Assembly: GCF_035989265.1 (NCBI RefSeq)
Contig: NZ_JAYKZX010000001.1
Coordinates: 62,001 to 126,000, forward strand
Reading direction: 5' to 3'
DNA from: Sphingobium sp. HWE2-09
Lineage (GTDB): Bacteria; Pseudomonadota; Alphaproteobacteria; Sphingomonadales; Sphingomonadaceae
DNA length: 64,000 nt
The position numbers and the translations under genes were made by a program. Under the pieces are notes generated by a model. It was given only the letters and a program-made list of their open reading frames with translations, searched no databases and was not told the origin of the DNA. This document shows positions 26,355 to 46,560 of the stretch, piece by piece (the stretch's first letter is position 1; each line of letters starts with the position of its first letter).

Positions 26355-27271
26355 GGCAGGTCCATCGCGATGCGCAGGCCGAACAACTGGCTCACCCGAT
26401 CGACCGGATCGCGCCCCCGGAAGGTCGGGCGGGCGCGGGTGACGTTGGTCGCCCAGCTCGCGCCGCGCACCGAACGCCGATCGCAGGTGCCCGCTTCATA
26501 GGGCCGTTCGTCCACCGCCGCCGCCGGATAGGGCATGACATAGCAGTCCTGCGTCCAGGTCCACACATTGCCGATCATGTCGCGAATGCCAAAGGCGTTG
26601 GGCGCGAAGCTGCCGACGGGCGCCAACGTGGCATAGCCATCGGAGCAGCTATTGGCCTTGCCCTCCACCACGGCGCTGGGCGCGGCGCTGGCGTCGAGCA
26701 GGTTGGCGTAGCGGCAGGCGTCCGCTGGATTGTCACCCCAGGGATAGAGCGACTTCGCGCCCGCGCGCGCCGCATATTCCCATTCCGCTTCGCTCAACAG
26801 GCGATAGGGCTTGCCCGTCTTCTTCGCGATCCATGCGACATAGGCAGTCGCGTCGCGCCAGTCGATGCAGACCACTGGATCATTGGCACGCGGCTTGCGC
26901 CCCAGCGCGGGATCGGCCCAGCCTACCCCCTTCGCCACGGCATAGGTGCCATCGCGCGGCAGGATGCAGTCGGTCGCCGCCTTATGCCCCGTCGCCTTCA
27001 CGAAGGCCGCGAACTGGGCATAAGTGACAGGCACCACGCCGATGGCGAAACCCTTGCGGATCGTCACCTCATGCACCGGGCCTTCATAGCGTTCCGGTTC
27101 GCCGCCATCTGCGCCCATAGTGAAACGGCCGGGCGCGACCACGACCATTTGCGAACAGTCGGCGCAATCACGGAAGGTCGTTCCGGGTTTGGGCGTGGCG
27201 GGCTTAGCCGATGCGGTTTGGGCCGACACCAGCCCCGACAGGGCCAGAAGGGAAAGGGCCAGAAACTTCAT
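26351..27271 (-). CDS. Secreted FGE/SUMF1-fold protein lacking FGE cysteines
   Basis: A 306-residue protein with a signal peptide ([20 protein letters not shown]) and a full formylglycine-generating-enzyme-type fold: [70 protein letters not shown] and RSVRGASW. True FGEs need a Cys pair just after the RGGSW-type motif. Here that stretch is [16 protein letters not shown] with no Cys, so sulfatase activation is not expected. PvdO- and EgtB-like members show the fold can do other oxidations. It sits between the two molybdenum-hydroxylase subunit genes, with ATGA overlaps on both sides. Confidence 0.85.
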
Positions 27272-29451
27272 GCAGTCACCTCGAAACCGGCGTCGATGAT
27301 CGGGAGGGCGCGGATGCGGCGGCCCGTTGCGGCATGGATCGCGCTGCACAAGGCAGGCGCGATGGCGGGGACGCCCGCTTCGCCGACGCCGCCGACCGGC
27401 GCGTCGCTGGAAACCAGATGCACCTCGATGCGGGGGGCGGAGCGCATCAGGAGGACGGGATAGTCGCCGAAGCTGCCCTCGACCACTGCGCCGTCCTTAA
27501 GCGTAATCTTGCCGAACAAAGCGGCCGACAGGCCGAAGATCGCCGCGCCTTCCAATTGCGAGACGATATTGTCGGGTGCGATCTGCTGTCCGCAATCGAA
27601 GGCGCAAACGATGCGATCGACGCGCAGCGCCTTGCCCTCCACCGCGACCTCAACCACCATGGCGCAGCGCGATCCCCAGCCGGTGGCGAGCGCGATGCCG
27701 CGCCCATGACCCTTGGGCATCGGCTTGCCCCAGCCTGCCTTTTCGCCGACCTGTTGCAGGACCGCGCGGGTGCGGGGATCGTCCTTCGCAATAGCGAGGC
27801 GATATTCGAGCGGATCGCGCTTCAGCTTCGCGGCGATCTCATCAATGATCGCTTCGGAGAAGAAGCCGTTCTGCGATCCCGAGACGGATCGCCAGTAGCC
27901 GGTGCGGACCGGCCCGTCGATCTCCACCGCATCGATCCGCTGCGCGCCAAGCGCGTAGTCGGGCGACAACAACCCGCCCGCGACCGCGCCGTCGGCAAGG
28001 CCGGGGAAGCGGAATTGCGACATGGTCGACAAGGGCTGGCCGGAGATACGGCCGCGCATGGCCGTGATGCTGCCATCGGCTGCGACGCCTGCGGTCAGCC
28101 GCGCGGCGAAACCGGGCCGGTAGAAATCGTTGCGCATATCTTCGTCGCGCGGCCAGATCAGCATGACCGGGCGTCCTGGCACTGCCATGGCGAGGCGCAC
28201 GGCCTGATGCACGAAGTCGCGCTCATTCTTACGCCCGAAGCCGCCGCCTAAATAGGTGCGGTTGACCATGATCGCCTCAGCAGGCAGGCCGGTAATCTTC
28301 GCCAGTTCGGGTGCGACGACATCGGCGCACTGGAGCGGTCCCCATATCTCGCAGGAATCGCCCTGCACCAGCGCGGTGCAGCAAAGCGGCTCCATCGTCG
28401 CATGGGCGAGATAGGGGACTTCGTAGGTCGCTTCGACCTTGACCGACGCGGCGGCCAGCATGTTGTCGATCGTGTCAGCACTGGCGCCCATGTCGGGCTT
28501 TTGCCCGTCAAACGCGATCGGGAAAGGCAGCCAGCCATCGCTGCGATCAAGGCCCGCAACGATCCGCTGGCGCAACGTCGCACTATCGATGCGGGGGCCG
28601 GGCTGCGCGGACAGGTCCAGCGCCAGTGCGCCTTTTTGCGCCTGCCAATAGCGATCCGCGACGACGCCTACCGCATTGCCGACCGGCACGACCTTGCGCA
28701 CGCCCGGCACGGCCAGGGCAGGTTCGGGCGCCACCGGACCCAGGGTGCCGCCAGCGACGGGCACGTGGCGGATGGCGGCGTAGAGCATGTCCGGCAGGAC
28801 CAGGTCCATGCCGAACAGCGCCGTGCCATCGACCTTGGCCGGGATATCCTTGCGCGGGAAATTCTGGCCGATCAGCCGGAAGCCCTTGCGGTCCTTGAGC
28901 GGGACGGACGTGGGCACGGGGATTTTGGCGGCATCGACGGCGACATCGCCATAGACCATGGTCCGACCGCTGGCAGCATGGGTCAGCCGCCCATCCTGCG
29001 TCGTGATCGTACCCGGATCGACGCTCCATCGCGCGGCCGCGGCGGCGACCAGCATTGCGCGGGCGCTGGCCCCGACCTGCCGCAGCACATCATAATAGCC
29101 GGTGACGGCATCGCTATTGGCGCTGCGTTGCCGCTTGTTCTTCGCGGCAAAGGCGCTGCTGGCGCCTGATAGCCGCACGGTGACGCGGCTCCAGTCTGCG
29201 TCCAGTTCCTCCGCCACGATACGCGGCAGGGCGTCGGCGACCCCCTGCCCCATTTCGGCGCCAGGCGTCACAATCTCGACAGCGCCGTCAGGCGATATCG
29301 TCACATAAGCATTGAGCCTGGCGTCCGGCGTCTGCGCGCCCGCCTTGTCCGGGACACCCAGCGCCGCGCCGACGGCGAGGCCGCCGCCAAGCGCCAGGAA
29401 CCCCCGGCGATTGAGGGAAATCACTCGATCGGCGGGCAAGGCGTCGCGCAT
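27268..29451 (-). CDS. Molybdopterin-binding subunit of molybdenum hydroxylase (IorB-like)
   Basis: This 727-residue catalytic subunit belongs to the xanthine dehydrogenase/isoquinoline 1-oxidoreductase family. It has a twin-arginine leader (NRRGFLALGGGLAVGAALG), so it works in the periplasm. Family segments include AEMGQGVADALPRIVAEELD, NRTYLGGGFGRKNERDF, and GVGEAGVPAIAPAL with the catalytic Glu. It is expected to hydroxylate a heteroaromatic ring or aldehyde with water-derived oxygen, passing electrons to the cytochrome c encoded 7 bp upstream. A nearer M26 start (29451) is used rather than 29526. Confidence 0.93.
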   Translation of the reverse strand: MRDALPADRVISLNRRGFLALGGGLAVGAALGVPDKAGAQTPDARLNAYVTISPDGAVEIVTPGAEMGQGVADALPRIVAEELDADWSRVTVRLSGASSAFAAKNKRQRSANSDAVTGYYDVLRQVGASARAMLVAAAAARWSVDPGTITTQDGRLTHAASGRTMVYGDVAVDAAKIPVPTSVPLKDRKGFRLIGQNFPRKDIPAKVDGTALFGMDLVLPDMLYAAIRHVPVAGGTLGPVAPEPALAVPGVRKVVPVGNAVGVVADRYWQAQKGALALDLSAQPGPRIDSATLRQRIVAGLDRSDGWLPFPIAFDGQKPDMGASADTIDNMLAAASVKVEATYEVPYLAHATMEPLCCTALVQGDSCEIWGPLQCADVVAPELAKITGLPAEAIMVNRTYLGGGFGRKNERDFVHQAVRLAMAVPGRPVMLIWPRDEDMRNDFYRPGFAARLTAGVAADGSITAMRGRISGQPLSTMSQFRFPGLADGAVAGGLLSPDYALGAQRIDAVEIDGPVRTGYWRSVSGSQNGFFSEAIIDEIAAKLKRDPLEYRLAIAKDDPRTRAVLQQVGEKAGWGKPMPKGHGRGIALATGWGSRCAMVVEVAVEGKALRVDRIVCAFDCGQQIAPDNIVSQLEGAAIFGLSAALFGKITLKDGAVVEGSFGDYPVLLMRSAPRIEVHLVSSDAPVGGVGEAGVPAIAPALCSAIHAATGRRIRALPIIDAGFEVTA

Positions 29452-29458
29452 CGGCGGA

Positions 29459-29836
29459 TTATTTCGCCGCGTCGCGAAGATAGGCGATGATCGCCTTGCG
29501 CAAATCCGCATTGGCGACGCCGCCAAAGGTCATGCGGTTGCCGGGCACGACGGCTTGGGGCTTGGCGATGAAAGCGTCGAGCTTCTTGTCGTCCCAGTTG
29601 AACCCCGCCTTGGCCAACGCCGGCGAATAGGCGAAGCCTGCGCGCGTCCCCGCCTTGGCCCCGAACAGGCCGTTAAGGTTGGGTCCGACCTTGTTCGGCG
29701 CCCCCTTCACGACGCTGTGGCAAGCGGTGCACTGCAGGAACAGCATCTTGCCCTTGGTAACTTCGGGGGACGGCGCAGCCTGCGCCGGGACGGCGACAAG
29801 AGCAGCTGCCAGGAGGATCGTCGCGCGTATCATCAT
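29459..29836 (-). CDS. Class I c-type cytochrome
   Basis: A 125-residue periplasmic electron carrier with a signal peptide (MIRATILLAAALVAVPAQAA), haem motif CTACH, PNKVGPNLNGLFGAKAGTR after it, and axial Met in GNRMTFGG. It resembles cytochrome c2/c550. Its start overlaps the monooxygenase stop by 4 bp and the molybdenum hydroxylase follows 7 bp later, so it is the likely electron acceptor of that enzyme. Confidence 0.94.
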   Translation of the reverse strand: MMIRATILLAAALVAVPAQAAPSPEVTKGKMLFLQCTACHSVVKGAPNKVGPNLNGLFGAKAGTRAGFAYSPALAKAGFNWDDKKLDAFIAKPQAVVPGNRMTFGGVANADLRKAIIAYLRDAAK

Positions 29837-33712: not shown

Positions 33713-34942
33713 ATGGAGATCAAGGTCGTGCTCAATACCTTTCAGCAGGCGCCCCACGCGGCATTGCCCCAGTCCACGCCGGAGGAAGCCGCGCGGCAGG
33801 AATTTTCCAAGAGCCTCAAGCAGTTCGTCCAGCAGGGGCTGCTGCCCGGTCTTGGCCCCGTCTATCGCAGCCGCGCCGCCCGCCGATTCGAGCGCGAGGC
33901 GGGCCGCGCACCGACCGACCGGCATGACATCCGCAAGGCGATGGTGCCCGACAGCTATTTCCAGCATTATGCCGCCGTCAACCGGATCAGCCAGGAATTG
34001 CTGTGGGATGGTGTGATCGACAGCATCGACCGCGATGCCGACGGATTGCGCGCGCGGACGGACGCGGCGTCGGAAAAGAATCAGGGCGAATTGCGGATTC
34101 CCGAGACATTCGACGTGCCGCGTTATGTCAGCGCGCTGGACATCCATTGCATGCCGGGCGGTTATGCCGGGCATGGCGTGGGCAATGATCCGGCGCTCGG
34201 CGCGCTCTACGATCGCGGCGTGTTCCTTTATGCCATGGGCTATACCGGGCCGGACAATGACGACATGGGCCGGTCCGTCTGCAACTATATCAAGCGGCGA
34301 CTGAACGGGTTCAGCCCCAAGCGCATCCTCGACATGGGCTGCACCGTCGGTCATTCGACGCTGCCATATAAGGAACTGTTCCCGGACGCGGAAATCTGGG
34401 GCATCGACGTCGCTGGTGCGCAGGTGCGCTACGCCCATGCCCGTGCGGGCGCGATGGGTCTGGACGTCAATTTCGCCCAGATGAATGCCGAGAGCGTGGA
34501 CTTTCCCGATGGGCATTTCGACCTGGTGGTCAGCCACATCCTGCTGCACGAAACGTCTGGCAAGGCGATGCCAAAAATCTTCAAGGAATGCCATCGCCTG
34601 CTGGCACCGGGCGGCTATATGATCCACGCCGATCTGCCGCCGTTCGACCTCATGGACCCGTTCACCCAGTTCATCCTGGATAACGAAACCTATTATAACA
34701 ACGAGCCTTTCTGGGGCGCGATGCGCGATCTGGACCAGGTGAAGCTGGCGACCGACGCAGGCTTCCCGGCCGATAGCATCCGGTTCGACACCGCGCCGAT
34801 GGCGGTGATGGAATTCGCCGCCAGCGAAGCAGCAGGCTATAGCCAGGACGCCGCGGACAGCGTTGCCGAACGCGATTTTACAGCTGGCGAATTCGCCCCC
34901 GGCGGCGGCTGGGAAGTGCTGATCGCCCAGAAGGCTGCCTGA
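33713..34942 (+). CDS. SAM-dependent methyltransferase, HCMPG-segment type (copy 1)
   Basis: A ~409-residue protein with a ~200-residue N-terminal region of unknown fold and a class I Rossmann methyltransferase domain. The N-terminal region contains DVPRYVSALDIHCMPGGY. The SAM motif I is RILDMGCTVGHSTLP at about residue 203, with acidic residue in IWGID, then LLHETSG and LLAPGGYMIHAD. NNEPFW lies near the end. It shares all these blocks with 43588-44811. The start is uncertain: ATGs at 33677 and 33647 are in frame. It heads an operon with a small helical protein and an FAD oxidase. The substrate is unknown. Confidence 0.85.
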   Translation: MEIKVVLNTFQQAPHAALPQSTPEEAARQEFSKSLKQFVQQGLLPGLGPVYRSRAARRFEREAGRAPTDRHDIRKAMVPDSYFQHYAAVNRISQELLWDGVIDSIDRDADGLRARTDAASEKNQGELRIPETFDVPRYVSALDIHCMPGGYAGHGVGNDPALGALYDRGVFLYAMGYTGPDNDDMGRSVCNYIKRRLNGFSPKRILDMGCTVGHSTLPYKELFPDAEIWGIDVAGAQVRYAHARAGAMGLDVNFAQMNAESVDFPDGHFDLVVSHILLHETSGKAMPKIFKECHRLLAPGGYMIHADLPPFDLMDPFTQFILDNETYYNNEPFWGAMRDLDQVKLATDAGFPADSIRFDTAPMAVMEFAASEAAGYSQDAADSVAERDFTAGEFAPGGGWEVLIAQKAA

Positions 34943-34965
34943 ACGGACCGCTTTAGAAAGACCTG

Positions 34966-35313
34966 ATGATGACCCAGATGCAACGTAGCGCCCGTGGCAA
35001 GCGCCCGACCTTTTACGAAACGCCCGCCCTGGACCAGATGATGTCGATGATCATGGTGCTGGCGAGCGAAGTGTCCGTCCTGGCCGACCAGATCGACGGC
35101 ATGCAGCGTGTCGCCAGTGCCAATGGCCTGGACCTCAAGGCAGGCATGGAAGCGCTCGTGCTGGATCAGCCTGCGCTGGAGGAACGCGAAGCGCGGCGGC
35201 AGGCGATGCTGGGCCGCCTCTTCTACCTGATGCGCAAGGAGGCCGACGAGGCCACCGCCAGCGAAACCAGCGAAGGCTATCACAAGGTGCTTGACGAGAT
35301 CGCACAGGGATGA
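34966..35313 (+). CDS. Small helical partner protein of the methyltransferase (copy 1)
   Basis: A 115-residue protein of no named family, with an N-terminal GKRPTFYETPALDQMM, a long helix (MIMVLASEVSVLADQIDGMQ), a linker, then a second helical half. The paralogue at 44811-45170 shares the GKRPxFxEP block, the long amphipathic helix and the length, and also follows an HCMPG methyltransferase. No signal or membrane segment is seen. The pattern suggests a dedicated subunit or scaffold. It begins 23 bp after the methyltransferase and overlaps the oxidase gene by 4 bp. Confidence 0.82.
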   Translation: MMTQMQRSARGKRPTFYETPALDQMMSMIMVLASEVSVLADQIDGMQRVASANGLDLKAGMEALVLDQPALEEREARRQAMLGRLFYLMRKEADEATASETSEGYHKVLDEIAQG

Positions 35314-36887
35314 GCGTCGCCGTCGATCACGATACCGCAGTCATCGCCGCGTTCCAGCAGATCGTCGGAGCCGACAACGTCCTGACGGGTGAAGCGCTGC
35401 TGCCGGTCGCCACCGATGTCTATCGCCAGGGCGCCCTGCCGGTGGCGGCGGTACGGCCGACCAGCATCGACCAGTTGCAGGCGGTCGTGCGGGCGGCGGC
35501 GGATTTCAAACTGCCCGTCACCGTGCGCGGCGGCGGGGCGTCCTATACGGACGGCTATATCGCGCGCGATGCCGGACAGTTGCTGATCGACATGAGCGGG
35601 CTGAACCGGATCGTCGCGATCGATGAGATAAACGGCCATGTCACGGTCGAGGCTGGCGTCACCTGGGCCACGCTGCGCGACGCACTGGCGGAAAAGGATT
35701 TGCGGACGCCATTTTGGGGGCCGTTCTCCGGGCTGGCCGCGACGGTCGGCGGATCGATGTCGCAAAATTCGATCAGCCATGGATCGGGTGCTTATGGCAT
35801 TTCCGCCGATTCAGCGCTGTCGTTCGACATCGTGACCGCCGATGGGGCGCTGTTGCGTACCGGGGTGGCGGCGGCAGGCGCGACGCCGGTCATGCGGCAT
35901 TTCGGGCCGGACCTGACGGGGCTGTTCACCGGCGATTGCGGCACCTTAGGGGTGAAGGCGCGGATCACCCTGCCCGTCATCCGTCGACGCCCCGCCCATC
36001 GCCCGATATCCTTCGCATTCCCGGATTTCGCATCGCTGCATGAATCCATGCGGCGGATCGCGATCGAGCGGATCGAGGACACGCATTTCGCGCTGGATGC
36101 CGCGCTGTCGCAGGGGCAGATCGCGCGGCAGGACCGGGCGGGCGCATCGCTGGACATGGCGCTGTCGATCGTCAAAAGTTCGCCCTCGCTGATCGCCGGG
36201 ATCAAGCAGGTGGTGCGGGCGGGCCTGTCCGCGCGCAAGGTTATCAGCAACTCCGCCTTTATGACCCATTATATCGTCGAAGGGTTCGACGATGCCGAAG
36301 TGAAGGCGCGCCTGCATCGGTTGCGCCAACTGGTCGAGGGGTTGGGGCGTGAGATTCCCGCCACGGTCGCCGCCGTGGTGCGCGGCATGCCGTTTGCGCC
36401 GCTGTTCAACACGCTGGGTCCGGCGGGCGAGCGCTGGGTGCCGTTGCACGGTATCCTCAAGCACAGCGCGGTGCCGGGGTTCGAGAAAGCCTATCAGGCG
36501 TTCTTGGCCGAACGGTCGGCCGACATGAAGCGGCTGGGCATCTGGACCGGGGGCATGTATGGCGCGGTCAATTCGGGCGGTTTCCTGTATGAAATCGCCA
36601 TTTACTGGCCGGACGAGATCACCGCCTATCATAGGGCCAATGTCCCTGCCGACTATCTGGCGAGCCTGCCGGTCTATCCCGCCAATGTCGAAGGGCGGGA
36701 CTATGTCCACCAGTTGAAGACCGATATGACGGCGCTGTTCGTGGCGCACGGATCGACCAATTTCCAGCTGGGCCGCGCCTATCCCTATGCGGACCGGCTG
36801 GCGGCCGAACCATTGGCGCTGGTCAAGGCGATCAAAAGCGCGCTGGACCCGGACGGGCGGATGACGCCGGGGGGGTTGGGGCTTTAA
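35310..36887 (+). CDS. FAD-linked oxidase (FAD_binding_4 / GlcD-VAO superfamily), copy 1
   Basis: A 525-residue flavoprotein with the PCMH-type FAD domain: VTVRGGGASYTDGYIARDAG, VTVEAGVTWATLRDAL, RTPFWGPFSGLAATVGG and a C-terminal substrate domain ending LDPDGRMTPGGLGL. Relatives oxidise alcohols, phenols or hydroxy acids. The RGGG segment lacks a His for covalent FAD. It shares the RGGGxSYTxGY and RTPFWGPxSG blocks with 48126-49733, so both derive from one duplication. It starts within the stop of the small helical gene. Its 3' end overlaps the convergent VOC gene by 4 bp. Confidence 0.9.
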   Translation: MSVAVDHDTAVIAAFQQIVGADNVLTGEALLPVATDVYRQGALPVAAVRPTSIDQLQAVVRAAADFKLPVTVRGGGASYTDGYIARDAGQLLIDMSGLNRIVAIDEINGHVTVEAGVTWATLRDALAEKDLRTPFWGPFSGLAATVGGSMSQNSISHGSGAYGISADSALSFDIVTADGALLRTGVAAAGATPVMRHFGPDLTGLFTGDCGTLGVKARITLPVIRRRPAHRPISFAFPDFASLHESMRRIAIERIEDTHFALDAALSQGQIARQDRAGASLDMALSIVKSSPSLIAGIKQVVRAGLSARKVISNSAFMTHYIVEGFDDAEVKARLHRLRQLVEGLGREIPATVAAVVRGMPFAPLFNTLGPAGERWVPLHGILKHSAVPGFEKAYQAFLAERSADMKRLGIWTGGMYGAVNSGGFLYEIAIYWPDEITAYHRANVPADYLASLPVYPANVEGRDYVHQLKTDMTALFVAHGSTNFQLGRAYPYADRLAAEPLALVKAIKSALDPDGRMTPGGLGL

Positions 36888-37384
36888 GCCCCTTCCCGTC
36901 CCGTCATCTCCTGTTCGGCGGGGTCCGTCTCCACCAGGTTGAGCAATATGCCATCAGGATCGCGCAGGCAGACTTCCTGCTGCGCGCGATGGGGCATGAC
37001 GAACAGCTCCGGTTCCGGGGACCAGGTCGCGCCCGCCGCGCGCAAGGCCGCGAGCGTCGCCGCCATCGATCGCACATAGAAAACCAGCGCCACCTCCCCG
37101 ATGCGCGCGGGGCCGGTGGCGGGCGCGACGACATCGGGATGCAGCGCCGGGTCGATCAGGAACAGGCCGATCATCCCGTAATTAGGGCCGCCGCTTTTGA
37201 CAATGCGCACGCTGAGCGGGCCGTGGTCGGCAAAACCCAATATGGTCGATGCCGACGGGGCGGTGAGGACGCCTTCATAATAGATGTCGGGAAAACCCAA
37301 CGCGGCATAAAAAGCGCTCGCTTGATCCAGATCGCGCACGAAGATGGTGCCGCGAATGAGGGCGGAAACCGCGCGGTCGGTCAT
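36884..37384 (-). CDS. VOC (glyoxalase/extradiol dioxygenase fold) protein
   Basis: A 166-residue protein with paired beta-alpha-beta-beta-beta modules: SALIRGTIFVRDLDQASAFY near the N-terminus and VCLRDPDGILLNLVET near the C-terminus, where a metal Glu is usually found. Function within the superfamily (lyase, isomerase, dioxygenase) is open. The start MTDRAVSALIRGTIF at 37384 overlaps the upstream gene by 4 bp, making a two-gene operon. Confidence 0.82.
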   Translation of the reverse strand: MTDRAVSALIRGTIFVRDLDQASAFYAALGFPDIYYEGVLTAPSASTILGFADHGPLSVRIVKSGGPNYGMIGLFLIDPALHPDVVAPATGPARIGEVALVFYVRSMAATLAALRAAGATWSPEPELFVMPHRAQQEVCLRDPDGILLNLVETDPAEQEMTGREGA

Positions 37385-38079
37385 GGATAGCGCTCCTCGG
37401 TAAAGGCAGCGAGTTGATAGGTGGTGGGCACATGGCTCCACCGCATCGCCAGGAACAGGCAGTCCTCTTGCCGCACCCAAAGATCGGCCGGGGGCCAGTC
37501 GTCCCGCCAGCGCAACTGATAATGGCGCGCGGCGAAGTCGCCCGCTGGGACGGTGATGGATGCCTGGCCCATATAGGCGACATCGATCCGTACCGGGCAG
37601 GCACCTACCCTTTCATCGCCATTGGGGGAGATGCTGTTGGTGATCGCGTCGATCGATACGAACGCGCCCGGCCGATCGACCCCGCGACATTGTACGATCA
37701 GGGCGTCCCCCTGCAGTGGATGCAGGCCAAGATAGGCGAGCGGGCCGTCCGTCGGCATATGCTGTGTCGGCAGGGACAGGCCGTCAACGCGCCCTTCGAC
37801 CCGCACGGCATCGGCGCCGACATCAAACCACAAAGCCGCCTCTTCCCACCCGTCCCTGATCAACCGGCAATAGCCATCGCGCGGACGCCAGTCCTCGTCC
37901 ATCGACAAGGAAACGTCGCGCAACAGCGCCGCATCGTCCAGCACGCACAGCGCGCGCAGGAGGTGGCCGCCGGGATGGGAGGACAGTTCGAAATCCTCAT
38001 GGCCGCAAGGAGTGCCGTCGGCGGCAAGATAGGCGATCCGGCCGGACAGGCGGCGGGATATGGCGGGGGAATAGGTCAT
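37381..38079 (-). CDS. Unknown-function beta-rich protein, ~232 aa (copy 1)
   Basis: There is no named family I can assign with confidence. Sequence blocks near the end (ASITVPAGDFAARHYQLRW, then ADLWVRQEDCLFL and TYQLAAF) recur in the protein at 52241-52966 as VTVQAGTFDCRHFRF, YDLWVTADEDAIF and TWYELVEL. The VxAGxFxxxHxxx pattern resembles DUF3108-like beta-barrels. It is cytosolic by sequence (no signal). It is paired with a VOC gene here, and the second copy lies beside another VOC gene, which hints at a shared step. Confidence 0.75.
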   Translation of the reverse strand: MTYSPAISRRLSGRIAYLAADGTPCGHEDFELSSHPGGHLLRALCVLDDAALLRDVSLSMDEDWRPRDGYCRLIRDGWEEAALWFDVGADAVRVEGRVDGLSLPTQHMPTDGPLAYLGLHPLQGDALIVQCRGVDRPGAFVSIDAITNSISPNGDERVGACPVRIDVAYMGQASITVPAGDFAARHYQLRWRDDWPPADLWVRQEDCLFLAMRWSHVPTTYQLAAFTEERYP

Positions 38080-38238
38080 CGACCAACGCTAACCGTGCGG
38101 CGATGCTGCCTTCCCCGCCAATCGGTGCTGACCGACAGGCGGGCATCCACGCGCCTCCATATTCCGGCATCGCGTCGGGCCGCCATTGTCCCCCGGTCGT
38201 TAGCGGGGGCGTCGCGCCCGGACCCATGAGGAAATAGC

Positions 38239-39213
38239 GTGTCGGGAATGGTCGAAATGCTGTGGAGCGTGTTCGACATCGACCGCGCCTGTGCGGCGTT
38301 GATTGATGTCGGCGGCTATGTGCGCACCGATCTGCCCGACGCTGGTGCCGATCAGGCGGCGGCATGGGGTTTGCCGGACGATTGCAGCCGGATCGCCCAG
38401 GTGCTGCTCACCGCTCCGTCCGACCCGGCAACCGTCCTGCGCCTCGTCCGCTTCGACGGATGCGAACAGGCCTTGATCCGACCGAGCCAGCGGGTCTGGG
38501 ATACAGGCGGCATCTTCGACATCGATATATTCTCGCGCGATGCGCGCGCCGCCTATCGCGCTTTGGTCGAGCGCCATGGCTGGACCGCCTTTGGCGAACC
38601 GGCAGATTATGTGCTGGGCGATTTCGATGTGACGCAGGTGGTGGCGCGCGGGCCGGACGGCATGGTGGCGGCCATCATCGAACCGCGCCAGCAAAGCGAC
38701 GTGGCCCTGCCGCGGCCCGGCGCCCTGTCCCGCCCGTTCAACGCGACGCAGATCGTGCGCGACATGGACGCGACGATCGCTTTTTTCACCGACATTTTGG
38801 GCTGGCGCGTCACGATGGCGATGGACGTGGAAGGGGCAGTCGAACCCGGCGCCGATGTGCTGGGCCTCCCCCTGCCCCATGCTCGCACGACTCGTCGGCG
38901 GATGGCGATCGTGCATCCCGACGGCACCAATGATGGATCGGTCGAATTGTTGCAGATCGTCGGCCTGCATGGGCATGATCATGCCGACCGGGCGGTCGCG
39001 CCGAATATCGGGCTGTTCGCCGCGCGCTTTCCGGTCGCCGACACGGACATCGCCGCCGCGACCATCGTCGCGCGCGGCGGGACGCTGCATTGCCCGCCTT
39101 GCGATGTCACGATCGCAGGCATCGGCCGCACCCGCCTGTTCGCGATCCGCACGCCCGATGGCGCGATCCTTGAATTTTTCCAAATTACAAACTCCGAAAG
39201 GCCCATCCCATGA
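38239..39213 (+). CDS. Two-domain VOC family protein (copy 1)
   Basis: A 324-residue protein with two glyoxalase-fold halves: an N-terminal half starting MVEMLWSVFDIDRACAALID and a C-terminal half with NATQIVRDMDATIAFFTDIL and LFAIRTPDGAILEFFQI. The GTG at 38239 follows GAGGAAATAGC. The N-terminal half resembles the VOC protein at 53114-54001. It overlaps the racemase-like gene by 4 bp. It could be an isomerase, lyase or dioxygenase. Confidence 0.82.
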   Translation: MSGMVEMLWSVFDIDRACAALIDVGGYVRTDLPDAGADQAAAWGLPDDCSRIAQVLLTAPSDPATVLRLVRFDGCEQALIRPSQRVWDTGGIFDIDIFSRDARAAYRALVERHGWTAFGEPADYVLGDFDVTQVVARGPDGMVAAIIEPRQQSDVALPRPGALSRPFNATQIVRDMDATIAFFTDILGWRVTMAMDVEGAVEPGADVLGLPLPHARTTRRRMAIVHPDGTNDGSVELLQIVGLHGHDHADRAVAPNIGLFAARFPVADTDIAAATIVARGGTLHCPPCDVTIAGIGRTRLFAIRTPDGAILEFFQITNSERPIP

Positions 39214-39968
39214 CTGACTCGCTAGGCCATCGCATGAAATTCGCGGTGGTGGCCCCGTCCACCAATACCAGCGTCGAGCCGGAATATGCCGCGATGCAGC
39301 CGCGCGGCGTCACCAATCACTTCTCGCGCATCGCCATCCCCGATACGCGCGTGACCGACGACGACAGTTTCATGGTGATGCTGGAAAATATTCGCGCCGC
39401 CACCTTCGACGCGGTCGATGTGTCGATGTCGATGGAGCCGGGCTGCGTCATCATGGGCATGTCGGCCGAAACCTTCTGGGACGGTGCGGAGGGCGCGGAT
39501 CGCCTGCACAAGAAGATGCTGGAGCGCACTGGCGGCGTGCCGGTCATCATGGGATCGACCGCCGTGGACGCGGCGATCAAGGCCTATGAAAGCGAAACCG
39601 GCCCGATCAAGAAGATCGGCATCCTGACCCCCTATGCCCCGGTCGGCGACGCCAACGTCAAGAAATTCTTCGAAGATCAGGGTTATGAGGTCGTCAACAT
39701 CATCGGCCTCAAATCGCCATCGCCGATGATGATCGCGCATGAATCCAAGCAGACGTTGAAACGCACCGCCATCGCCGTGTCCGAAGGCGTCGATGCGATC
39801 ATCCAGGCGGGCACCAACCTCGCTTTCGCCGAAGTCGCCGCCATTGCTGAATTTTGGCTGGAAAAGCCGGTGATCGCGATCAATACCGCCACCTATTGGC
39901 ACGCGCTGCGTTCGATGGGCATCCAGGACCAGATGGACGGGTTTGGCACGCTGCTCAGCCGCTTCTAA
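39210..39968 (+). CDS. Maleate isomerase / arylmalonate decarboxylase family protein
   Basis: This 252-residue Asp/Glu-racemase-superfamily enzyme starts with the family's VVAPSTNTSVEPEY. Maleate isomerases use two Cys. Here the second site reads AIIQAGTNLAF, with Gly201 where SAC is expected, and the nearest Cys to the first site is Cys79 (SMEPGCVIMG), which does not align cleanly. Catalysis may thus rely on one or no Cys. It is co-transcribed with a VOC and a deacetylase-fold gene. I infer action on a dicarboxylic ring-cleavage product. Confidence 0.82.
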   Translation: MTDSLGHRMKFAVVAPSTNTSVEPEYAAMQPRGVTNHFSRIAIPDTRVTDDDSFMVMLENIRAATFDAVDVSMSMEPGCVIMGMSAETFWDGAEGADRLHKKMLERTGGVPVIMGSTAVDAAIKAYESETGPIKKIGILTPYAPVGDANVKKFFEDQGYEVVNIIGLKSPSPMMIAHESKQTLKRTAIAVSEGVDAIIQAGTNLAFAEVAAIAEFWLEKPVIAINTATYWHALRSMGIQDQMDGFGTLLSRF

Positions 39969-39985
39969 GCATAAGGGTCGTACAT

Positions 39986-40900
39986 ATGGACTATGATTAT
40001 ATCCCCCTTCCCCAGCGCAAGCCGCTGGTGTGGCCGAACGGCGCGCGCGTCGCGCTGATCCTGACGTTCAACCTCGAAACCTGGGATCTGACGAAGGATA
40101 CCGACAAGCCCTATTATGCCGGTGGTCCAGCGATCCTGCCCGATATCCTGCCGGGCAATATTCCCGATTTTCCCAACTTCACCTGGCGCGAATATGGCCA
40201 GCGCGTTGGCATCTGGCGCCTGTTCGACCTGTTCGACAAGCTGGGCGCGAAGGCGAGCTGCACTACCAACGCGGTGACGTTCGAACGGCGCAAGGCGATG
40301 ACCGACGCGGTGCTGGAACGCGGTTGGGAATTGCTGACGCATAATTGGGAACAGGGCGAACTGCTGACCAATTTCGCGGGCGATCCGGCCAAGGAGCGCG
40401 AGATCGTAATGCGCACGCTCGACCAGTTCGAGAAGTTCACCGGGCGCAAGTCCAAGGGCTGGCTCTCATCCTCCTTGCGCGGCACGATGCAGACGGCGGA
40501 CATCCTCGCCGAATATGGCGCGACCTTCTACTGCGACATCATGAATGACGATCAGCCCTATCTGCTGAAGACGCCGCACGGCCCGATCGTGTCGGTACCC
40601 TATTCCAACGAAATCAACGATTTCACCTTCATCACGCGTAAGAATTTCACGACCGACCAGTTCGCCCAGGCGCTGATCGAGGAACTGGACGTGCTGTATG
40701 AGGAAGGCGCGACCAGCGGGCGGATCATGAATGTCGGCCTGCACCCGCATGTCTCGGGCCGCGCGCATCGCATCCGGGCGATCGCGGAGTTTATCGAACA
40801 TGCCAAGTCGCTGCCCGGCGTGTGGTGGGCGACGCGTGAGGAGATTGCCGACTGGTATCTCCAGAACCATGAAAGCCATATCCCCGGCCAGCTTGGCTGA
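39986..40900 (+). CDS. Polysaccharide-deacetylase-fold hydrolase (PuuE-like)
   Basis: This 304-residue NodB-homology protein has VALILTFNLETWDLTK near the N-terminus, YGQRVGIWRLFDLFDKLGAK, WELLTHNWEQGE, and the metal-type LHPHVSGRAHR near the end. Layout and length are closer to the cofactor-independent allantoinase PuuE subgroup than to chitin deacetylases. It has no signal peptide, so a cytosolic amide or ring hydrolase is likelier than a cell-wall enzyme. The start MDYDYIPLPQRKP at 39986 lies 17 bp after the previous stop. A terminator follows. Confidence 0.85.
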   Translation: MDYDYIPLPQRKPLVWPNGARVALILTFNLETWDLTKDTDKPYYAGGPAILPDILPGNIPDFPNFTWREYGQRVGIWRLFDLFDKLGAKASCTTNAVTFERRKAMTDAVLERGWELLTHNWEQGELLTNFAGDPAKEREIVMRTLDQFEKFTGRKSKGWLSSSLRGTMQTADILAEYGATFYCDIMNDDQPYLLKTPHGPIVSVPYSNEINDFTFITRKNFTTDQFAQALIEELDVLYEEGATSGRIMNVGLHPHVSGRAHRIRAIAEFIEHAKSLPGVWWATREEIADWYLQNHESHIPGQLG

Positions 40901-40908
40901 ACCGGACA

Positions 40909-40937
40909 GAGGGGGAGCAGCGATGCTCCCCCTTTTT
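40909..40937 (+). terminator. Rho-independent terminator
   Basis: GGGGGAGC (40911-40918) and GCTCCCCC (40925-40932) form a perfect stem with loop AGCGAT and a following T5 run. It closes the VOC-racemase-deacetylase operon. The convergent MmgE/PrpD gene ends within it. Confidence 0.85.
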
Positions 40938-42300
40938 ATGCCGCGCCCATGATCCCGGTGGCGCGCAGGCTGGCGATTGCGTCGTCGCTGTCATGCAGAC
41001 CGGCTACCGCGTCGATCAGCGGTTGATGCGCCGCAGGAAGGCCGCCGAAGCTGAGGCAGCCCAACGCTTTGTCATCATGCTGCTGCCGGGTCAGTGGCCA
41101 TTGCGGCGATCCCAACTGAGCGTCGATCGCCATGTCCAGGCTGCGACCGTCCGACAACCGGGCCACCGCCCGCGCTGGCACGAAGGCCGCCGGATCGGCA
41201 TTGCCGTCGTTGACGACCGCGATGCGCGCGGCGAGAGCCAGCAGCGCCGGATCGTCCAGGCTTTCGCGTCGGAAATCGGCTAGCGATACCGTACCGCGCG
41301 TCAGCGTCACGGCGATGAGCCAGGGCAGGCACAGCCGCGCATAGCCCGGTTCCATATGCGGCCTGGTTGGACGCCCGACGAGGCGATGGATCAGCGGCGG
41401 CGCATGATAGTCCAGCCGTTCCAGCCATTCGGGCCGCAGCCCCTGTTCCGCCATCAGCCTTTGCGTGGCAACGATACCGCCATGCCCTGCGCGGCCTGTC
41501 GGAAAGGGCTTCCAACTGACTTCGGTGATCCGGTGTCCTTGCGCCAGCAGCGCCAGCGCGGCAGGTAAATCGTGACTCACCTCCTGCAACGCCAGATAGC
41601 CGAACGGCCCGTCGATCGGCGCGGCGACGCCGGGCATCCCCGCCCGCGCCAGATCGATCGCGACGAGGGAGGAGCGCGCCGCATTGGCGACCTGCACCGG
41701 CAAGGCAGGCTTGCCCTCGACATGCGCCTGCATCGTGCCCGACGCAAAGGCGAGCGCATGGCCGAAGGCGTCGAGCGCCTGTTGCCGCTCCATCCGCCGC
41801 AACCGGGTGATCGCGGCGACGCAGCCGAAAATGCCCGCGGTGGCGGGACGGAAGAAACTCAGCGGCCCGGTCGCGGCCAGGCCGAGTGTGACAGCGACAT
41901 CGACACCTGCAACGATGGCGCCGAGGAAGTCGCTGCCACTGACCGGCGCGCCCCGCTCCGCTTCGCCCAGCAGCGCCGCCAGCACGGTCGCCATCGGGTG
42001 CAGCACGGCGGGTTCATGGACGCAGTCATATTCCTGCCCATGAATCTGGAACGCATTGACGAAAGCAGCCGAGGCGGCGGGCAAGGTCAAGCCCGGCCGA
42101 CCGAGCACGGAGGCCGAACCGCCCTCACCCCATCCCTGCGCTATCGCCAACACCGCGTCGGCATGGGCGGCATTGCGTCCGGCCACTCCGACGCACAGGC
42201 TGTCGTGCAGAAAGATACGAGTCGCCTCCCGCGCCGGGGCGGGCACGGCAGCCCATTCGATGCCCAGCGCATGATCGATCAACGTTTCGGACGCGCTCAA
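40936..42300 (-). CDS. MmgE/PrpD family protein
   Basis: A 454-residue protein of the 2-methylcitrate dehydratase-like fold: HDSLCVGVAGRNAAHADAVL, FQIHGQEYDCVHEPAVLHPM, and SWKPFPTGRAGHGGIVATQR. The family dehydrates or isomerises tricarboxylic or substituted acids, with iminodisuccinate epimerase and cis-aconitate decarboxylase as relatives. I place the start at the TTG at 42300, which overlaps the SDR stop as TTGA (MSASETLIDHALGIEW). No ATG fits the family N-terminus. It is third in a HapK-SDR-PrpD operon. Confidence 0.87.
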   Translation of the reverse strand: MSASETLIDHALGIEWAAVPAPAREATRIFLHDSLCVGVAGRNAAHADAVLAIAQGWGEGGSASVLGRPGLTLPAASAAFVNAFQIHGQEYDCVHEPAVLHPMATVLAALLGEAERGAPVSGSDFLGAIVAGVDVAVTLGLAATGPLSFFRPATAGIFGCVAAITRLRRMERQQALDAFGHALAFASGTMQAHVEGKPALPVQVANAARSSLVAIDLARAGMPGVAAPIDGPFGYLALQEVSHDLPAALALLAQGHRITEVSWKPFPTGRAGHGGIVATQRLMAEQGLRPEWLERLDYHAPPLIHRLVGRPTRPHMEPGYARLCLPWLIAVTLTRGTVSLADFRRESLDDPALLALAARIAVVNDGNADPAAFVPARAVARLSDGRSLDMAIDAQLGSPQWPLTRQQHDDKALGCLSFGGLPAAHQPLIDAVAGLHDSDDAIASLRATGIMGAA

Positions 42301-43118
42301 TGCGGTTCCTCGCCACCCGACACGTTCATGCTTTCGCCGGTGATATAGACGGCTTCGTCCGAACACAGGAAGGCGACGGCGCTCGCGGTATCGCCCGGCA
42401 CGCCCGGCCGCCCCATGGGAATGCGACCGGCCATGCGCTTGAGATATTCTTCCACCGAAATGCCCTGCAAAGCAGCAAAATGTTCGTTCTGCCATTGGCC
42501 CAGGCCCGTCGTCACATGATTAGGACAGACGTTGTTGACGGTGATGCCATGGCCGCCCAATTCGATGGACGCCGACCGGACCAAGCCCACAAGGCCGTGT
42601 TTCGATGCGGTATAAGCCTGCGCATGGGGGAAGCCGGACTTAGCCGCCTGGCTGGCAATATTGACGATGCGGCCGCCCTTGCCTTGCGCGATCATGATCT
42701 CCGCCGCTGCCTGAAGCCCGAAGAACGCGCCGGTCAGGTTGACGTCGATCACCGCGCGCCAGTCATTGGCGGACACGTCCATCAACGGCTTCATGATATA
42801 GCCGATACCGGCATTGTTGATCCAGATGTCGAGCGATCCATGGACCGCCTGCGCATGGGCCGCCAGCGCGCGCACCTGATCTGGATCACGCACATCGCAG
42901 GGGAAAGTCGATCCAGGCGTGGCGAGCGACGCGGCGATCCGCTGCATTTCGTCTGTACCGCCGATCATGCCGTCGGGCGTCGCGGCGTCGCGCGACGCAC
43001 CGATGTCGGAAATTACGACCGCCGCGCCCTCTTCCGCCAGTCGCCGGGCGATCGCCTCGCCCAGCCCGCCCGCGCGGCCCGATCCGGTGACGACGGCGGT
43101 CTTGCCCGCAAACCTCAT
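42297..43118 (-). CDS. Short-chain dehydrogenase/reductase (SDR)
   Basis: This 273-residue classical SDR has cofactor motif VTGSGRAGGLGEAIARRLAE (a TGxGxxxGxG variant), the NNAG block INNAGIGYIMKP, the catalytic Ser in IVNIASQAAKSG and the YxxxK in AYTASKHGLVG. The end includes VAFLCSDEAVYITGE. It oxidises or reduces a hydroxyl/keto group with NAD(P). The start at 43118 overlaps the HapK-like stop by 4 bp. The frame is open far upstream but only this ATG fits. Confidence 0.93.
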   Translation of the reverse strand: MRFAGKTAVVTGSGRAGGLGEAIARRLAEEGAAVVISDIGASRDAATPDGMIGGTDEMQRIAASLATPGSTFPCDVRDPDQVRALAAHAQAVHGSLDIWINNAGIGYIMKPLMDVSANDWRAVIDVNLTGAFFGLQAAAEIMIAQGKGGRIVNIASQAAKSGFPHAQAYTASKHGLVGLVRSASIELGGHGITVNNVCPNHVTTGLGQWQNEHFAALQGISVEEYLKRMAGRIPMGRPGVPGDTASAVAFLCSDEAVYITGESMNVSGGEEPH

Positions 43119-43423
43119 GGATGAACCTGCTCGGTCGTCAGGAACGTCACGTCGGCCATGTCCTGGAATGCGGCGGCGATCGCCTGCATCTTGTCGGTCG
43201 CAGCGTCGCGGCCGAACTGCTCCATATCCTCGACATCGATGATCTCGACATAGTGATAGGGCGGGGCCGCATCGGTGCCGAGCTGCCCGGTGGTGCGGAA
43301 CAGGTCGAAACCGCCGATGGAGGGCAGCGCGTTGACCGTCGGCAGATCGACGGTGCGCGCCCATTGTTCGTAGCTTTCGACCGAAATGCCGGGCTTCAGG
43401 TTCAACAGGGCGATCAGGCGCAT
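43115..43423 (-). CDS. REDY/HapK-like small ferredoxin-fold protein
   Basis: A 102-residue protein, MRLIALLNLKPGISVESYEQ at the start and YHYVEIIDVEDMEQFGRD in the middle. This matches the REDY-like/HapK family (dimeric alpha-beta barrel) known from prodigiosin-type biosynthesis loci and from catabolic clusters. The role is probably a small lyase, cyclase or isomerase, but no activity can be assigned. It is the first gene of the three-gene operon and diverges from methyltransferase copy 2. Confidence 0.8.
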   Translation of the reverse strand: MRLIALLNLKPGISVESYEQWARTVDLPTVNALPSIGGFDLFRTTGQLGTDAAPPYHYVEIIDVEDMEQFGRDAATDKMQAIAAAFQDMADVTFLTTEQVHP

Positions 43424-43587
43424 CACATGGTCCTCGCGATGGAAGGGAAGCGCCACGCTAATGGGCGGCGGCCGGGGTTCAGCACGCCCGGCGCTTTTGA
43501 CCGCGATGCGAGCAGATGACGCCCCGCGCCTTGCCGGCGGGCGGGCTTGTGCCCTGATACCCGCCACATCTGTCAGTCGAGGAAGCC

Positions 43588-44811
43588 GTGGTGGACGATA
43601 GCCGTAGCAACGATCCAGCAGCCCAATATGATGGCCCGCCCGATTATCGCGTGGTCGGCCGCCATGCCCTGTTTCCGCAGACGGGGCATGACGAGGTTGA
43701 GCGGATCAATTTCCTGGCGCAGATGAACCGCCATCTCGCCGCGCGCATCGTGCCGGGGGTGAAGGCCGCCTATGAGCAACGCGTCGTGCCCAAGTTCGAG
43801 GCCGAACAGGGCCGCCCCATCGCCAATCGGCACGAAGCGCGCAAGGCGCTGCTGGGTGATGCGGCATTCCAGACCTGGTCCGCGCTGCGCCGCATGACGA
43901 TGGAACAGCGGCAGCAGGCCGGACGCTGGACGGTGATCCGCCAGCGCGAACGGCTGGCCCGCATTGCCGCCGATCTGACCGATGGCGACGATCGGCTCTC
44001 GCTAGATCCGTCCCTGCCCATTCCCCGCTATGTGTCGGCGGTCGATCATCATTGCATGCCCGGCAGCTATCATAGCGAGGCCTTTGCCGGCGACGTCGCC
44101 AATGGCGCCAATTATGATCATGCCGGTTTCGTAACGACTGGTGGTCTGTTAGGTAAATATTCCGATGGTGGCGGCCATGCCGTGGTCCGTTGGGTGAAAC
44201 GCAACCTGCCCGATTTCCAGCCGCATCACATATTGGAAATCGGCGGCACCGTCGGTCACAGCAGCCTGCCGCTGGCGCAGGCCTTTCCGGATGCCGAGAT
44301 GACGGTCGCCGACCTTGGCGCGCCGATGCTGCGCTACGGCCTGGCCCGCGCCAAGTCGCTGGGCGTGGACAATATCCGCTTCGTGCAGGCGAGCGGCGAG
44401 GATCTGTCGATCTTCCCGGACCAGAGTTTCGACTGGATCCAGACCACGATGTTCCTGCACGAACTGTCGACCACCGCGCTGCGCAACATTTTTGCCGAGA
44501 CGCGGCGGCTGCTCAAGCCCGGCGGCATCGTGCTGCATGTCGAGCAGCCGCAATATGCGCCCGACATGCCGCTGTTCGAACAGGCGATGCGCGATTGGGA
44601 CGCCTTCTACAATAACGAGCCTTTCTGGAGCCGGATGCACGAAATGGACCTGGACAAGGCCATGATCGATGCCGGGTTCGATGCCGACAGTCTGATCCAT
44701 GGGGGGGTCACCGCGGTCGTGGATCGCGACCTGTTCCCGGACGCGCAGGATGACGACACCGAGGACTATGGGCGCAAGGCGGCCTGGCACGTGATTGGGG
44801 CGATGGTCTGA
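43588..44811 (+). CDS. SAM-dependent methyltransferase, HCMPG-segment type (copy 2)
   Basis: A ~407-residue paralogue of 33713-34942. Shared blocks are PRYVSAVDHHCMPGSYH at about residue 146, the SAM site HILEIGGTVGHSSLPL at ~213, FLHELSTTALRN, RLLKPGGIVLHVEQ and FYNNEPFWSRM. The second acidic SAM ligand region is MTVADLG. Motif I has GG where copy 1 has GC. It starts at one of two adjacent GTG codons (43588/43591) after GAGGAAGCC. The next gene, a small helical protein, begins in TGATG overlap with its stop. Confidence 0.86.
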   Translation: MVDDSRSNDPAAQYDGPPDYRVVGRHALFPQTGHDEVERINFLAQMNRHLAARIVPGVKAAYEQRVVPKFEAEQGRPIANRHEARKALLGDAAFQTWSALRRMTMEQRQQAGRWTVIRQRERLARIAADLTDGDDRLSLDPSLPIPRYVSAVDHHCMPGSYHSEAFAGDVANGANYDHAGFVTTGGLLGKYSDGGGHAVVRWVKRNLPDFQPHHILEIGGTVGHSSLPLAQAFPDAEMTVADLGAPMLRYGLARAKSLGVDNIRFVQASGEDLSIFPDQSFDWIQTTMFLHELSTTALRNIFAETRRLLKPGGIVLHVEQPQYAPDMPLFEQAMRDWDAFYNNEPFWSRMHEMDLDKAMIDAGFDADSLIHGGVTAVVDRDLFPDAQDDDTEDYGRKAAWHVIGAMV

Positions 44812-45170
44812 TGAGTTTTGCAGAGGCATTGAACGAGGCGGGCGCAAAGCCCGCTGGCAAGCGGCCCTATTTCCTGGAGCCGCAGGTCGAGCGCGTCCTG
44901 GCGATCACCATGACCATCGCGCAGGAACTGGCCGTCGCGCGGCAACGCGTCGATACGCTGGAACGGCTGCTGGCGGACAAGGGCATCCTGTCGGCCACGG
45001 AGATCGAAGCGTTTGCGCCCGATCCGCAGGCCGCCGCCGAGCGCGCCATGTGGAACCAGGAATATATCGCCCGTATCCTGCGCATCGTGACCCAGGAAAA
45101 TGAGGCGGCGGTCGCCAGCGGCGATATGGCATCAGGCGATGTCGGCGATGAGATCGCGGCGCAGAAATGA
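44811..45170 (+). CDS. Small helical partner protein of the methyltransferase (copy 2)
   Basis: A 119-residue protein with GKRPYFLEPQVERVLAITMT, then a coiled-coil-like helix (AQELAVARQRVDTLERLLAD) and a second helical half. It is the counterpart of 34966-35313: it follows the same kind of methyltransferase, with which it shares a 1-bp stop/start overlap. The N-terminal GKRPxF block is the most conserved part. I recognise no database family. Likely a subunit. Confidence 0.82.
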   Translation: MSFAEALNEAGAKPAGKRPYFLEPQVERVLAITMTIAQELAVARQRVDTLERLLADKGILSATEIEAFAPDPQAAAERAMWNQEYIARILRIVTQENEAAVASGDMASGDVGDEIAAQK

Positions 45171-45177
45171 TCCGGGC

Positions 45178-46560
45178 ATGAACGACAGCTTCGAATTTAC
45201 CGTCCCCGTCCTGGTCATAGGCGGCGGCGCCTGCGGCTGTATCGCGGCGCTGGCGGCGAAAGACGCGGGCGTGGACGTGCTGCTGGTAGAGGCCGACGCC
45301 CGGCCGATGGGGTCGAGCGGCATGTCGCAGGGGCTGATCTGCGCGGCGGGCACGCAGGCGCAGGCGGCGCTGGGGGTCGAGGATGATGCCGAGACCTTCT
45401 TCGCCGACATCATGGCCAAGACGCAGGGGCAGACCGATACGGTGATCGCCCGCGCACTGGCAGAGCAATCGGGGCCGACGCTGGACTGGATGGTCGAACG
45501 CCACCAATTGCCGTGGGAACTCGATACCGGATTCCGGCCCGTCTACGGCAATAGCCGGTTCCGCGTCCATGGCTGGCGCGGCCATGGCGGGCAGGAGATG
45601 GTGGACTTGCTCCACCAGAAACTGGCCGACGAAGGCGTCGACGTGCTGCTGGAAGCCAAGCTGGTCGATATGGTCGCGGATGCCGATGGCCGCGTGTTGG
45701 GCGTGGTGCTGGAACGGCCCGACGGATCGCATGAACGCGTCGGGTGCGAAACGATCATCTTCGCCGCGGGCGGCTTTGCCGCCAATCATGCGATGGTCGC
45801 GCAGTTCATGCCCGACATGGCGAATGCGCGGAACAACGGCCATGAACGCAGCCAGGGCATCGCCGTACGGATGGGCCAGCGCATCGGCGCGGCGCTGGGC
45901 GACATGGGCGCCTATCAGGGTTACGCGATGCTGACCGAGCCGCAGGGCATTCCGGTGCCGCCGGGCGTGCTGGTGGAAGGCGGGATGATCGTCAACATGG
46001 CTGGCGAACGCTTTACCGACGAAAGCGCGGACATTGCGGGCATGTGCCATCCGGTGATGGCGCAGCCGGGCACGCATTGCTGGGTGATCTATGACGCGGG
46101 CATCGAAGAGCGCTGCGCCTATATCCCCGAAACACAAGCGCTGATGGAGTTGAACGCGGCCAAATGCGGCGACACGGTCGCGGCGCTGGCGCAGGCGATC
46201 GGCGTGGATGCTGACGCCCTGGCGCAAACGCTGGCACAGGCGCATGACGCGCAACGGGCCGGGACGCCCGACCGGTTCGGCCGGGATTGGGGCAAGGACA
46301 CGCCGCCATCCGGATCGCTCCGCGCGCTCAAGGTGGTCGGCGCGATCTTCCATACCCAGGGCGGTTTGCAGATCGACGGGTCGGCGCGCGTGCTGCGCCC
46401 CGATGGCAGCGCGCTGCCCAACGTCTTTGCCGGGGGCGGATCGGCCCGTAGCGTATCGGGACCGTCAAGCTGGGGCTATCTGCCCGCCATGGGCCTGTGC
46501 ACCGCCGTCACGCTGGGCCGTATCGCGGGTGAGGCTGCTGCAGCGCAAGTCAAAGGATAG
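45178..46560 (+). CDS. FAD-dependent oxidoreductase (fumarate reductase/KsdD flavoprotein family)
   Basis: A 460-residue FAD_binding_2 protein with ADP-binding PVLVIGGGACGCIAALAAKD, FAD-family SSGMSQGLICAAGTQ, the capping domain in the middle, IIFAAGGFAAN, and C-terminal NVFAGGGSARSVSGPSSWGY. Relatives are 3-ketosteroid dehydrogenases and fumarate reductases, which remove or add hydrogens next to a carbonyl. It starts 7 bp after the small helical gene, taking the place of the FAD oxidase in the first module. Its last ~46 bases are duplicated in tandem downstream. Confidence 0.9.
   Translation: MNDSFEFTVPVLVIGGGACGCIAALAAKDAGVDVLLVEADARPMGSSGMSQGLICAAGTQAQAALGVEDDAETFFADIMAKTQGQTDTVIARALAEQSGPTLDWMVERHQLPWELDTGFRPVYGNSRFRVHGWRGHGGQEMVDLLHQKLADEGVDVLLEAKLVDMVADADGRVLGVVLERPDGSHERVGCETIIFAAGGFAANHAMVAQFMPDMANARNNGHERSQGIAVRMGQRIGAALGDMGAYQGYAMLTEPQGIPVPPGVLVEGGMIVNMAGERFTDESADIAGMCHPVMAQPGTHCWVIYDAGIEERCAYIPETQALMELNAAKCGDTVAALAQAIGVDADALAQTLAQAHDAQRAGTPDRFGRDWGKDTPPSGSLRALKVVGAIFHTQGGLQIDGSARVLRPDGSALPNVFAGGGSARSVSGPSSWGYLPAMGLCTAVTLGRIAGEAAAAQVKG

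Follow-up and report, generated by a model that had tools for sequence, protein, structure and literature searches.

The stretch of DNA analysed here, hereafter the window, comprises 64,000 nucleotides of Sphingobium sp. HWE2-09 (contig NZ_JAYKZX010000001.1, positions 62,001 to 126,000). It carries two gene pairs, A and B, each encoding a putative methyltransferase with an S-adenosylmethionine (SAM) binding core and a small helical protein, and each lying upstream of a flavoprotein gene. These pairs, and the possibility that they specify a two-component enzyme, are the subject of this work. The six genes are as follows.

33728..34942, + strand: methyltransferase A, proposed catalytic subunit (GTG start likely; longest open reading frame from 33647)
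34966..35313, + strand: small helical partner A, 115 amino acids
35310..36887, + strand: FAD_binding_4 flavoprotein, 4-cresol dehydrogenase/vanillyl-alcohol oxidase-like, a neighbour outside the module
43588..44811, + strand: methyltransferase B, proposed catalytic subunit
44811..45170, + strand: small helical partner B, 119 amino acids
45178..46560, + strand: FAD_binding_2 flavoprotein, flavocytochrome c fumarate reductase/urocanate reductase-like, a neighbour outside the module

All six genes are open at these positions, in the order given for two operons by a preliminary description of the sequence. That description placed the start of methyltransferase A at the ATG at 33713; the GTG at 33728 is likelier, with GGAG upstream of it and relatives that begin MLNTFQQ. 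The likely start of the B flavoprotein is the ATG at 45178. The stop/start coupling that had been described is present between methyltransferase B and small gene B (TGATG, 1-nt overlap) and between small gene A and its flavoprotein gene (ATGA, 4-nt overlap), but not between methyltransferase A and small gene A (23-nt gap) or between small gene B and its flavoprotein gene (7-nt gap). Codon comparison with relatives indicates that both genes of both pairs are under purifying selection: nonsynonymous and synonymous divergence (dN and dS) are 0.14 and 1.03 for small gene A against locus L092, and 0.18 and 1.31 for small gene B against L014.

The two sets of genes had also been taken for a duplicated three-gene module. 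Methyltransferases A and B share 38% identity over 345 amino acids (E 7e-77) and the small proteins 31% over 104 (E 2e-12, a single comparison), whereas copy A is 81–83% identical to relatives in L092–L095 (from the best 80 of 570 loci, see below) and copy B 78–86% identical to relatives on eight plasmid records. Since both copies have much nearer relatives elsewhere than each other, and since the flavoproteins belong to different families, a recent duplication of the three-gene module is ruled out. A strain carrying one of the plasmid homologues is named in PMC10653915, the main text of which does not contain the word "methyltransferase". A single-sequence query with methyltransferase A found no relative on viral contigs. 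The same contig carries a third methyltransferase–small protein pair at 144.4–145.9 kb (L009 8398–9880), 18 kb past the window (62.0–126.0 kb), in reversed order with the small gene upstream.

Conservation of the pair across genomes

We searched 199 genomes of the host family with thresholds of E 1e-25 for the methyltransferase and E 1e-4 for the small protein, scoring up to 9 and up to 26 candidates per genome, respectively. Methyltransferase matches occur at 90 places in 37 of these genomes and small-protein matches at 92 places in 39. At 82 of the 90 methyltransferase places a small gene lies within 500 bp on the same strand, downstream in 75 cases and upstream in 7. The conserved pairing proposed from the window therefore extends through the host family, and the rare adjacency that had been named as the outcome contradicting it is not observed there. 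Seven of the other eight methyltransferases have a small-protein match 0.9 to 15 kb away on the same contig; the last belongs to an assembly of about 420 contigs and lacks such a match on its own contig. Copy numbers of the two genes are equal in all 37 genomes; the two genomes with the small protein only contain weak matches (E 1.3e-8 and E 7.9e-5, the latter with an internal stop). The co-occurrence gives a Fisher p of 3e-38, which overstates the evidence because the genomes are related.

A scan across collections, with one genome per species, found relatives encoded in at least 570 stretches of 594 listed. We retained the best 80 of these 570 loci, a choice biased towards intact loci closely related to copy A. 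They derive from alpha-, beta- and gammaproteobacteria, Myxococcota, Binatia and cyanobacteria and, together with the window, encode 101 methyltransferases, 93 of which have a same-strand small gene within 3 kb. Six of the eight unpaired copies (L135, L137, L142, L143, L145 and L150) each lie about 3 kb from a paired methyltransferase; in L132 the small gene is on the opposite strand, and L165 has no small gene. The distribution of the family is patchy: it is present in 4 of 398 genomes of the phylum, the window's own counted, and in 1 of 59 genomes of the phylum of the Binatia locus, namely the genome of that locus, while a methyltransferase match occurs in 25 of 337 genomes of the class. In this class sample, where up to 5 methyltransferase and up to 15 small-protein candidates were scored per genome, the 21 genomes with the small protein all fall among the 25 with the methyltransferase.

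Co-variation was analysed with 126 non-redundant pairs, chosen from 165 pairs of which 147 are distinct. Between methyltransferase and small protein, the distance matrices correlate with r 0.88, compared with a maximum of 0.12 in 999 shuffles, and with r 0.66 when distant pairs only are considered. The methyltransferase and the small protein have travelled together.

The two proteins and their predicted complex

Methyltransferases A and B include a Rossmann-like class I SAM core (Pfam), with a glycine loop and an acidic residue after strand 2; these SAM motifs are fully kept in 32 of 32 aligned relatives. The shared region preceding the core, noticed in the two window copies together with an HCMPG segment, is a genuine family feature with an HxMPG motif: H144, P147 and G148 of the DxHxMPG loop are invariant in the 32 relatives, as are H278-E279 and N328/E330. 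Among the 60 of 81 PDB sequence matches listed, the best stretch always starts at profile position 147 (of 378) or later, so that the first part of the protein has no sequence relative among them. The best NCBIfam matches, CpaM (49.7 bits for A and 47.6 for B against a cut-off of 180) and BioC (49.7 and 37.2 against 184.95), are below the family scores. The core fits the structures of DnrK, CouO, ToxA, RdmB and TamK about equally well, and phosphoethanolamine methyltransferases, MitM and RebM rank high in Foldseek.

The small proteins, described at the outset as belonging to no recognised family, have no solid match in Pfam, NCBIfam or PDB sequences. Pfam gives no match for either; NCBIfam gives none for small protein A and one at chance level (E 0.023) for B. 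Among 36 family members only single-member Pfam or NCBIfam matches at E 0.004–0.009, again chance level, were obtained, and by sequence none appears to carry a Trm112 domain (no Trm112 match in Pfam at E 0.01). The family profile reaches a best E of 0.1 against PDB sequences, and the structure-match lists, which are filled by core matches, show no obvious relative of the small subunit. Conservation within the family includes a G-x-R-P segment and E, V, R, D, E and R residues within helices.

At some loci both genes share a reading frame and are separated by just one stop; reading this stop as a residue thus yields a natural joined sequence for modelling. AlphaFold2 was applied to two such read-through pairs, that of L123 (69% identical to methyltransferase A) and that of L028 (54% identical to methyltransferase B and 35% to L123). 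They gave a predicted local distance difference test score (pLDDT) of 88.1 and 89.0, respectively, and a predicted template modelling score (pTM) of 0.88 each. In both models the linker is the only stretch of at least three residues scoring under 50, the small protein forms a helix of 32–34 residues followed by shorter ones, and a long helical hairpin, kinked in the L028 model, opens the methyltransferase. This hairpin may pack on the small protein. As a rough bound, an unplaced small protein would be expected to give a pTM near or below 0.72; the value of 0.88 in both models is as expected of a defined complex. The two predictions agree with the subunit pairing suggested in the preliminary description.

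Gene neighbourhoods and candidate substrates

A flavoprotein had been proposed as a third partner. Directly downstream of 83 pairs, with genes called by a simple script, we found a flavoprotein in 23 cases (from the FAD_binding_4, _3 or _2 groups) and other genes in 27; in the remaining 33 the next 400 bp contain no gene on the same strand. Around the third pair of the contig, alpha/beta hydrolases are neighbours, with a major facilitator superfamily (MFS) transporter and an aconitase-family gene near, and no flavoprotein was found among the ten open reading frames scanned, eight of which have a Pfam match. With only 23 of 83 pairs followed by a flavoprotein, and with two different flavoprotein families in the window itself, a fixed third component is rejected. 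Flavoproteins are nevertheless frequent company, being present in 55 of 80 loci.

Neighbours within 8 kb of the methyltransferase were tallied for 126 partly overlapping loci, with gene calls made by a simple script. A 4-cresol dehydrogenase/vanillyl-alcohol oxidase-like flavoprotein occurs in 53 of these loci and a PuuE-like hydrolase in 34. Transport-type neighbours include MFS and GPH transporters and TonB receptors; others are alpha/beta hydrolases, FAD_binding_3 monooxygenases, aldehyde dehydrogenase, isochorismatase-fold amidases, and caprolactamase-like HyuA/HyuB, LeuC-like, methylisocitrate/dimethylmalate-lyase-like and maleate-isomerase-like proteins. Proteins of the domain-of-unknown-function family DUF1838 lie near methyltransferases in 30 loci, at a median distance of 291 bp (e.g. 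L065 7124–8155). Two such neighbours are found in the window.

39210..39968, + strand: maleate isomerase/Amdase-like protein, A-cluster neighbour
39854..40900, + strand: PuuE-like hydrolase (polysaccharide deacetylase family), a frequent neighbour

Our reading is that these neighbourhoods are catabolic clusters equipped with transport proteins and receptors of the outer membrane. Judging by the hydrolases, the substrates may contain nitrogen-bearing rings that end in small branched dicarboxylates. Because the neighbours include HyuA/HyuB, amidases and PuuE-like, maleate-isomerase-like, LeuC-like and lyase-like proteins, the breakdown of tetrapyrroles or other pyrroles or lactams is a candidate route and a lead. 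Some members lie outside the catabolic pattern, beside a luciferase-like monooxygenase (a Binatia locus), a pyridoxal phosphate enzyme (a cyanobacterial locus) or an L,D-transpeptidase (a gammaproteobacterial locus).

Three further genes were observed in passing. L061 1165–2463 encodes a 432-residue protein without a Pfam match, the C-terminal part of which has a cytochrome c-550-like match; its group occurs near methyltransferases in 14 loci. A REDY/HapK-like protein, of a kind linked to prodigiosin clusters, is encoded divergently from methyltransferase B (window 43115–43567, − strand) and is also annotated on plasmid pJE1 (L012). Elsewhere in the window, an FGE-sulfatase (sulfatase-modifying factor-like) gene at 26351–27349 (− strand) adjoins a molybdopterin-binding open reading frame at 27268–29526.

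Interpretation and comparison with known systems

Co-occurrence, co-variation and the predicted complex agree, and thus support a conserved two-protein system. The earlier idea of a two-subunit methyltransferase acting with flavin oxidation is retained for the two proteins and for the undescribed nature of the small partner, but not for the flavoprotein. We consider it probable, at roughly 0.66, that the pair constitutes a two-component SAM methyltransferase of catabolic gene clusters with a small subunit of a new kind. The large subunit would consist of an N-terminal helical hairpin, the conserved D-x-H-x-M-P-G loop and the class I SAM-binding core; the small subunit, a dedicated helical protein that includes a long helix and a G-K-R-P segment, would bind the large one and stabilise or activate it. 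The complex would methylate intermediates of clusters which hold TonB receptors, transporters, flavin oxidases, alpha/beta hydrolases and lactam-, imide- and maleamate-type hydrolases, and paralogous pairs would act on different substrates. Narrow term searches of the open-access literature returned no paper on the pair.

A number of observations weigh against this proposal. In the class sample 4 of the 25 genomes with a methyltransferase match have no small-protein match, their methyltransferase matches being weak (best 5e-53), and a same-strand small match lies within 500 bp at only 30 of 68 methyltransferase places (a hand count that includes the three of the window's own genome). Four genomes of one family (G670, G785, G875 and G946) supply 20 of the 68 places but 3 of the 30 paired ones, leaving 27 of 48 for the rest. 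Adjacency, which was expected to hold across genomes, is thus clear in the host family (82/90) and in the window plus the best 80 of 570 loci (93/101) but less so in the class sample. A strict rule of adjacency comes close to holding within the host family, but it fails in the class sample and in G785, G875 and G587, and is rejected. In the 12 stretches examined from G785 (L192–L203) we found 14 methyltransferases and 7 small genes: seven methyltransferases adjoin a small gene, two are tandem copies and five have none within about 4–5 kb, while one of the small genes stands in an 8-kb stretch that contains no methyltransferase. Orphan methyltransferases also occur in the stretches examined from G875 and, several of them, in those from G587, the genome of L157 (loci L178–L189), a 2.7-Mb freshwater gammaproteobacterial metagenome-assembled genome with 18 methyltransferase matches. 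Several methyltransferases may share one small subunit, or some may work without a partner. In addition, linkage alone explains part of the tree correlation, and the modelled fusions have a short linker, which can favour contact. The class-sample recount lowered our confidence in the two-component reading from 0.72 to 0.66.

Three other explanations were weighed. The enzyme might bind SAM without methylating and instead carry out a decarboxylation, a hydroxylation or a similar reaction, as do DnrK-group members reused for such chemistry, while the small protein gives the active site its shape. RdmB and TamK, whose structure titles name a hydroxylase and a decarboxylase respectively, align with the core roughly as closely as genuine methyltransferases do, the invariant H144, H278-E279 and N328/E330 could make an acid-base site, and methylation steps are unusual in catabolic clusters; yet the SAM motifs are intact in all 32 relatives and ordinary methyltransferases are equally good structural matches, and we regard this explanation as unlikely. 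We judge slightly less likely again that the small protein stands outside the working enzyme, as a folding chaperone dedicated to the methyltransferase or as a regulator of it or of its operon. A small helical protein could act transiently, and orphan methyltransferases and tandem copies beside one small gene would be understandable, but the copy-number match in 37 of 37 genomes, the co-variation and the two predicted complexes fit a stable partner better.

That the two are unrelated genes carried together in catabolic islands without physical contact appears very improbable. The clusters are indeed patchy (4/398 and 1/59 genomes) and occur on plasmid records, linkage alone can correlate trees, and adjacency in the class sample is only 30/68. 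Against this, the other genes of the clusters vary from locus to locus, whereas the pair persists in both orders (75 downstream, 7 upstream) and, within the best 80 of 570 loci, is kept from proteobacteria to cyanobacteria.

A methyltransferase family that is present in 37 of 199 genomes of one bacterial family, is multiplied in some of them and is tied to a dedicated partner lacking annotation could account for failures of such enzymes on expression without it. The pairing also provides a function-by-association handle on a nameless family of small proteins, and the pairs mark catabolic clusters without assigned substrates. A broader and rather doubtful extension is that they represent a widespread, unrecognised class of two-component SAM enzymes that initiate or direct the degradation of an entire group of natural products, for which nitrogen-containing-ring compounds that end as maleamate-, maleate- or methylmalate-like acids are candidates. 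In genomes where methyltransferases outnumber their partners, a single small subunit would then be shared by several catalytic ones.

Enzymes that methylate small molecules are mostly regarded as single chains that need no partner. For the class I enzymes RebM, MitM, CouO, DnrK and ToxA, sequence likeness to the methyltransferases described here starts at or just before the SAM core, and we know of no need for a small helical partner in any of them. CpaM, a corrinoid-associated methyltransferase, and BioC have the SAM core alone in common with the family. The DnrK/RdmB/TamK group also has a class I core preceded by extra helices; identity is 11–17% over the aligned residues, with a root-mean-square deviation of about 4, some alignments extend into the N-terminal part, and to our knowledge the group has no separate subunit. 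The Trm112-activated methyltransferases resemble the pair in that a small protein partners a class I methyltransferase, and the methyltransferase chain of a Trm112 complex (6f5z) is among the structure matches. Unlike in the Trm112 system, however, the small protein here is predicted to be all-helical, none of the 36 members scanned has a Trm112 match, and many of the genes are located beside those of catabolic enzymes.

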